A stretch of DNA of 33,229 bases from Acidimicrobiia bacterium (lineage in GTDB: Bacteria; Actinomycetota; Acidimicrobiia; IMCC26256; PALSA-610): the NCBI GenBank assembly GCA_036271555.1, contig DATBAK010000080.1, positions 1 through 33,229 on the forward strand, given 5' to 3'. Position 1 is the stretch's first letter; each line of letters starts with the position of its first letter. Under the pieces are notes generated by a model. It saw nothing but the letters and a program-made list of their open reading frames with translations. It had not been told where the DNA came from and did not search any database. The translations under genes were made by a program, and so were the position numbers. Below, in pieces: positions 32,129-33,229 of the stretch.

Positions 32129-32212
32129 GTCGGAGTGGCGGAACAGGCAGACGCGCTAGGTTGAGGGCCTAGTCCCCGCAAGGGGGTGGGGGTTCAAGTC
32201 CCCCCTCCGACA
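32129..32212 (+). tRNA. tRNA-Leu (anticodon GAG)
   Basis: The acceptor stem pairs GTCGGAG (32129-32135) with CTCCGAC (32205-32211), followed by discriminator A. The anticodon stem pairs CTAGG with CCTAG around the loop TTGAGGG, giving anticodon GAG at 32163-32165. A long variable arm (TCCCCGCAAGGGGG region) marks a class II tRNA, and the T-loop TTCAAGT is normal. CCA is not encoded. The 3' half is also read antisense as the end of a recombinase fragment, which marks the tRNA as an integration site. Confidence 0.97.
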
Positions 32213-32983
32213 CGACCAATCTTCACCGCGCCGTCCGAGCCCTACCTCCGCCAGCGTCACGTTCAACTTCGGTGCACCTCGTACGGTCACTTCGAGATGA
32301 TCGTGGTGCATTTCGATGCCTTCGACGAGCTCGTCGACCAGGACTCGACGCTCGGTCTCCGTCGCGGCGTCCCAGATGGCCTCAACATCGAGGTCGGCCA
32401 GGTAGGCGGCGATCTCTTCGAAACGGTCGACAACCTCAGCTGATCGCGCGTCCGCTGTGGCTGCTTCCTGCTCCTCGGAGCGGAGCGCGTCGATCTGGCC
32501 GGTGAGGCGGCGCTGATCCTCGTCGAACAGCTCCTCGCTGATCCGACCGTCGTAGAGCAGCCGCAGCAGGTTGCGCCGTTCGTCCAGCAGCGCTGCGAGT
32601 CGCGTCGCTGAGGATGGCGCCGCCGGTCGCCGCCCCTGGCGGGGCGTCTCTCCGGCAGCCGCCAACTCCTCGCGGCTCGCGTCCCGTAAGCGCTCGTCGC
32701 TGCCGATCAGTTGCAGGCCAAGGAGCGTTGCCTTCATCAGTCCAGTCGCCGCACGACGGGGGAGTGGGCAGCCCTGACCTCGATGCCGACACCGGTAGTG
32801 AATTCGGCCCGATCCATTGTCATCGACCGTCATGAGTCGTCGGCACAGTGCACACCGGACGCGCCCCGACAAGACGTCTCGTCCTCGCCGCCGACCATGG
32901 ACTCGTCCTTGATGCGCCGCTGCGAACTCGTCCGCGCTCACGATCGGTTCGTGCTGGCCCGCGAACCACTCACCGTTCAGCCG
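32156..32983 (-). pseudogene. Large serine recombinase, C-terminal fragment lacking the catalytic domain
   Basis: The frame can be read from the join at about 32983 (RLNGEWFAGQHEPIVSADEF, end of the Recombinase domain). It continues through a zinc ribbon (CALCRRLM, then YRCRHRGQGC) and a coiled coil (LLYDGRISEELFDEDQ, LTGQIDALRSEEQEA) to the C-terminal block RRVLVDELVEGIEM. These are the DNA-binding parts of large serine integrases. The N-terminal resolvase domain with the catalytic Ser is missing, so it cannot recombine. The last 19 or so codons lie antisense in the tRNA-Leu (RRGDLNPHPLAGTRPST), with the TAG stop provided by its anticodon stem. The first in-frame start, GTG 32941, would give 261 residues. 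It is the relic of an element inserted at this tRNA. Confidence 0.85.
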
Positions 32984-33229
32984 TGCGTCATGACCAACGG
33001 CAACGCGTTCTCGTGCTTCGACACCACGTGGATGCAGTGGATGTCGAGCCGGTCGATCGTCGTCGTGAACTGCGGCCGCGCGTTCAGGCGCGTCTCGCAG
33101 CGGCGCCAGTCGTATTCCGACGTCCAGTAGCGCGCGAGCTCGCGGATCGCCGCGAGTTGCACGCCCTGCGAACGGTCGGCGACGAGCTCGCGGGTCGGCC
33201 AGCGCGTTGCCTCGACGCGGCGGCGCAGC
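32977..33229 (-). pseudogene. Epoxide hydrolase N-terminal fragment (5' end outside window)
   Basis: The minus-strand frame is open from the right edge: RRRVEATRWPTRELVADRSQG, then ARYWTSEYDWRRCETRLNA, PQFTTTIDRLDIHCIHV and NALPLVMTHG. This is the EHN domain of microsomal-type epoxide hydrolases, leading into the oxyanion-loop motif HGWPGS. The frame stops with TGA at 32977-32979 exactly where Trp-Pro-Gly should come, so the alpha/beta-hydrolase core with its Asp nucleophile and His is absent. Beyond that point the sequence is recombinase. The start codon is beyond the window. Confidence 0.88.

Follow-up and report, generated by a model that had tools for sequence, protein, structure and literature searches.

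A truncated serine integrase gene ending inside tRNA-Leu(GAG): probable left-end scar of a small integrative element in an Acidimicrobiia genome

Near the right-hand end of a contig of an Acidimicrobiia bacterium (GenBank assembly GCA_036271555.1), the front part of an epoxide hydrolase gene runs directly into the rear part of a serine integrase gene, which raises the question of what event joined them. The window, i.e., the whole stretch of DNA analysed here, is contig C80 (DATBAK010000080.1; 33,229 nucleotides), one of 104 contigs of a 4.68 Mb genome that is 95.8% complete with 4.45% contamination. The locus is probably what remains of the left end (attL) of a small integrative element after a recent deletion, which ran from inside the integrase gene across attR and ended in a hydrolase gene flanking the element; we assign this reading a probability of about 75%.

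On the minus strand, the hydrolase fragment (32975..33229) has its start codon on a second contig, C10, which supplies an in-frame start and yields 110 amino acids before the stop. The fragment contains the EHN domain (Pfam, E=2e-27), and its frame terminates as ...ENALPLVMTHG followed by a TGA ending in 32977. In four close hydrolase homologues, WPGS follows THG without a break, whereas the window frame stops after HG and includes neither the HGWPGS motif nor the catalytic alpha/beta-hydrolase domain. From 32983, another minus-strand frame encodes the C-terminal 275 residues of a large serine integrase (32156..32983, including the stop codon), comprising the end of the recombinase region, the zinc ribbon, and the C-terminal part. 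Its 275 codons (32159-32983) contain no stop or frameshift, Zn_ribbon_recom is recognized by Pfam (E=9e-7), and alignment indicates that the four zinc-ribbon cysteines are retained and that the fragment is collinear with intact integrases from about residue 226 onward, with 66% identity over 275 residues to the intact homologue of genome G001. The N-terminal resolvase catalytic domain, which is present in relatives, was not found in the window, nor was a homologous integrase N-half found in the genome. These results uphold the earlier note in three respects: the hydrolase frame breaks where HGWPGS should continue, at the coordinates it gave; the second frame is the end of a serine recombinase, as the zinc-ribbon match and the collinear alignment indicate; and both genes have lost essential parts, namely the catalytic resolvase domain of the integrase and everything from WPGS onward in the hydrolase. 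Among viral contigs, no relatives of the integrase relic were found; its matches in phage and plasmid records were all below 60% identity, and comparison with solved structures gave no match.

The hexamer CGGCTG occupies the join (32978..32983; read 32983-32978 on the minus strand), and all six bases had been thought to fit both genes. At this point, the sequence is CTC CTG AAC in the closest intact integrase and CAC GGC TGG in the closest hydrolases. The position of the hexamer stands, as does CTG (32978-32980), the only part supported by homologues of both genes; CGG comes from the hydrolase, and counting it as shared requires that CGG also stood at the codon the integrase has lost; six shared bases is thus an overstatement. 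The microhomology may therefore comprise 3 supported bp and at most 6 bp. By our own calculation with equal base frequencies, at least 3 shared bp are expected in approximately 5% of random joins, and the microhomology is therefore suggestive only.

The opposite end of the integrase frame offers a further clue. Its stop codon (32156-32158) lies inside a tRNA-Leu(GAG) gene on the plus strand (32129..32213; ARAGORN), an overlap that was absent from the earlier reading of this frame. An integrase frame that stops inside a tRNA gene resembles the attL boundary of an integrated element, and a putative attL at the tRNA 3' end, as in a tRNA-integrated genomic island, was thus found. The presumed att core, GTGTCGGAGGG (32203..32213, minus strand), covers the end of the tRNA acceptor arm, and the same core occurs at both element ends in relatives. 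To the left of the tRNA gene, genes including an oligopeptide-type ABC transporter are common to the window and G001, G003, G004, G008, G023, and G048. Other C-terminal integrase remnants at tRNA-Leu were identified in G026 and G031, along with an older one in G009. In G040 (contig C52; L063, about 880-1010), the tRNA-Leu gene beside a decayed integrase remnant itself seems broken, as its 3' part alone is recognizable and ARAGORN calls no tRNA.

An intact element, which the earlier note had suggested seeking in relatives, was found at the same tRNA gene, for example in G001 (PLBO01000055.1; L049/L079). This genome shares the left-hand gene order, which is followed by an integrase gene and then a REP_ORF2-G2P gene. 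In contrast to the window copy, the G001 integrase is complete (507 aa; Resolvase, Recombinase, and zinc-ribbon domains), and its attR is present at 4.1 kb. When GTDB species genomes were scanned with the integrase alignment, 24 loci emerged, the closest being mostly from actinobacterial and Acidimicrobiia MAGs. A tRNA-Leu gene lies at the integrase 3' end in 12 of the 24 (anticodon gag in eleven, aag in one), and G058 is a thirteenth relative with the integrase at tRNA-Leu. All eight loci with enough sequence carry a second, same-strand copy of the core 9-mer GTGTCGGAG upstream. Overall, 10 same-strand copies were counted against 0.72 expected, and none on the opposite strand, a count that is somewhat favourable because the 9-mer was picked after inspection of these loci. 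The core pairs enclose 4145, 4545, 6770, 6339, 6227, 7110, 4579, and 4816 bp, containing the integrase gene, mostly a replication gene, and cargo. The replication genes are of the REP_ORF2-G2P or RepSA type or have no Pfam match, the last being so called by position only, and the cargo includes, for example, DUF4399, GmrSD and RAMA, or DUF4917/SIR2-like genes.

Taken together with the window, these elements suggest a course of events. Insertion by a serine integrase would have placed the element at the tRNA-Leu(GAG) 3' end, restoring the tRNA and leaving the integrase gene ending inside it. A later deletion would have removed the integrase N-terminus, the remaining element with its attR, and the C-terminal part of the hydrolase gene beyond, and the ends would have been joined where they share 3-6 bases. 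Neither of the gene fragments left behind is expected to be active. Here we infer a single deletion, end joining at microhomology, and a hydrolase gene situated outside the element.

The expected direct repeat was sought as well. No copy of the core occurs in 8.8 kb beyond the join; a genome-wide search for the tRNA 3' end with up to 3 mismatches recovered nothing but this tRNA and a second tRNA-Leu, and a search for GTGTCGGAGGGCCG gave four scattered one-mismatch hits, so that neither C10 nor the rest of the genome offers a convincing attR. This bears on whether the hydrolase was instead cargo of the element, with a deletion internal to it. The varied cargo of the relatives' elements would allow for such a gene, and the older element in G009 has its truncated integrase beside a luciferase-like monooxygenase gene. 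However, such an element should have its attR on C10, a few kb at most past the start of the hydrolase gene; 8 kb there contain no core, and no core lies near the hydrolase homologues in relatives; we consider this explanation quite improbable. The relatives also contain the intact epoxide hydrolase gene that the earlier note had proposed looking for. EHN-family enzymes of G008, G007, and G031 are 73-81% identical over the 83 residues remaining in the window and are full length, unlike the window copy, which is missing the catalytic part. They stand in other surroundings, and none of the relatives shows the gene to the right of the tRNA in an intact pre-deletion arrangement. The closest intact homologue (G008, contig C306; L054, 1-301) is likewise close to a contig end, about 300 bp away or less. 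Synteny on the C10 side was considered as a guide to the original right flank of the tRNA, but relatives do not conserve the helicase context found there, so that this side gives no indication of what the flank was.

The position of the join in the assembly calls for caution. It lies 246 bp inside C80 from the contig end, at an assembly-graph boundary, and the contig's final 141 bases (33089..33229) are repeated exactly at the start of C10, as would be expected if the two contigs were adjacent nodes of a k=141 graph that branches there. Chimeric reads or misassembly could thus have falsely joined an integrase locus to a hydrolase locus: the exact overlap with C10 means that the assembler met a branch close to the join, and a search of viral contigs with a junction 26-mer found no independent copy. 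Yet 3-6 shared bases alone presumably cannot mislead a k-mer assembler, so that a false join would take chimeric reads at a useful depth, and the hydrolase frame runs correctly from C80 into C10. Furthermore, neither true continuation was found in the 95.8% complete assembly, which contains neither the integrase N-half nor an orthologous hydrolase C-half; a 44% identical paralogue is carried by C59. A missing half may have gone unassembled because the genome is incomplete. On balance, we regard a chimeric contig as unlikely. An inversion or translocation that parted the gene halves would leave the same kind of trace, as one join by itself cannot separate deletion from rearrangement, but the displaced halves should then lie elsewhere in the genome, and their absence makes this account scarcely credible. 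The same absence supports the deletion. The earlier proposal of a deletion through short homology, removing most of an inserted element and part of a host gene, therefore stands as regards the truncations and the missing halves, whereas its six-base homology is reduced to three supported bases.

The truncation appears to be recent, because the relic contains no stop or frameshift, its relative-rate counts are balanced, and the unique changes in the hydrolase fragment fall within the range of intact homologues. Relative-rate counts against G001 with four outgroups were 32:23, 24:19, 21:19, and 20:24, and the hydrolase fragment has 5 unique changes compared with 2-7 in intact homologues; neither measure revealed faster decay of either fragment. 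Between the relic and G001, pN is 0.196 and pS 0.539, a ratio similar to that of the intact pair G001/G009 (pN 0.282, pS 0.604). Of 69 otherwise invariant columns, 10 are changed in the relic and 6 in G001.

The scar itself is a relic of a known kind left by an ordinary event, and the more interesting part is the little-described family of tRNA-targeting elements behind it. In G009 (contig C72; L080, 2182-11493), three core copies lie in a row at tRNA-Leu, and an older truncated integrase (the C-terminal 133 residues) separates an older element from a newer intact one; elements thus appear to stack in tandem at this site. Candidate phage-defence genes occur in two family elements, being GmrSD/RAMA-like in L089 (5182-11409) and DUF4917/SIR2-like (PADLOC PDC-S21) in L051 (8465-13281). 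In L084, L088, and L091, family integrase genes are followed by an attP-like core and no tRNA; these may sit inside tandem arrays, be excised forms, or have inserted at other target sites. Free circular forms were also considered, and the ends of the contigs that carry an attP-like core do not overlap. It is possible, and we propose tentatively, that the relic represents a group of small integrative elements not described before, whose hosts are Acidimicrobiia-type bacteria. Members of this group would have a serine integrase that targets tRNA-Leu(GAG) and no recognized transfer genes, would swap replication initiators and cargo (candidate phage-defence genes among it), and could form tandem stacks at the tRNA. 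The locus is an example of how the 3' end of an integrase gene can survive next to its tRNA gene after the remainder of an element has gone. It also points to tRNA-associated serine integrases with inferred att pairs; tRNA genes are described as a rare target for serine recombinases (PMC3218068).

The nearest known systems are the actinomycete integrative and conjugative elements (AICEs) with serine recombinases, which include a Mycobacterium group at a tRNA-Leu gene (PMC3218068). Of the AICE gene set (integrase, replication, and transfer genes), the window retains an integrase fragment only, and most of the relatives' elements add a replication gene; no FtsK/SpoIIIE-type transfer gene was recognized among the open reading frames read in them, and they span only 4-7 kb. 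In addition, their hosts are mostly Acidimicrobiia-type MAGs, and the window copy is a remnant. The likeness to the Mycobacterium elements, drawn from their description, nevertheless extends to the serine integrase, the tRNA-Leu target, and a small integrated element with a replication gene, which in one relative is a RepSA of the pSAM2 type.
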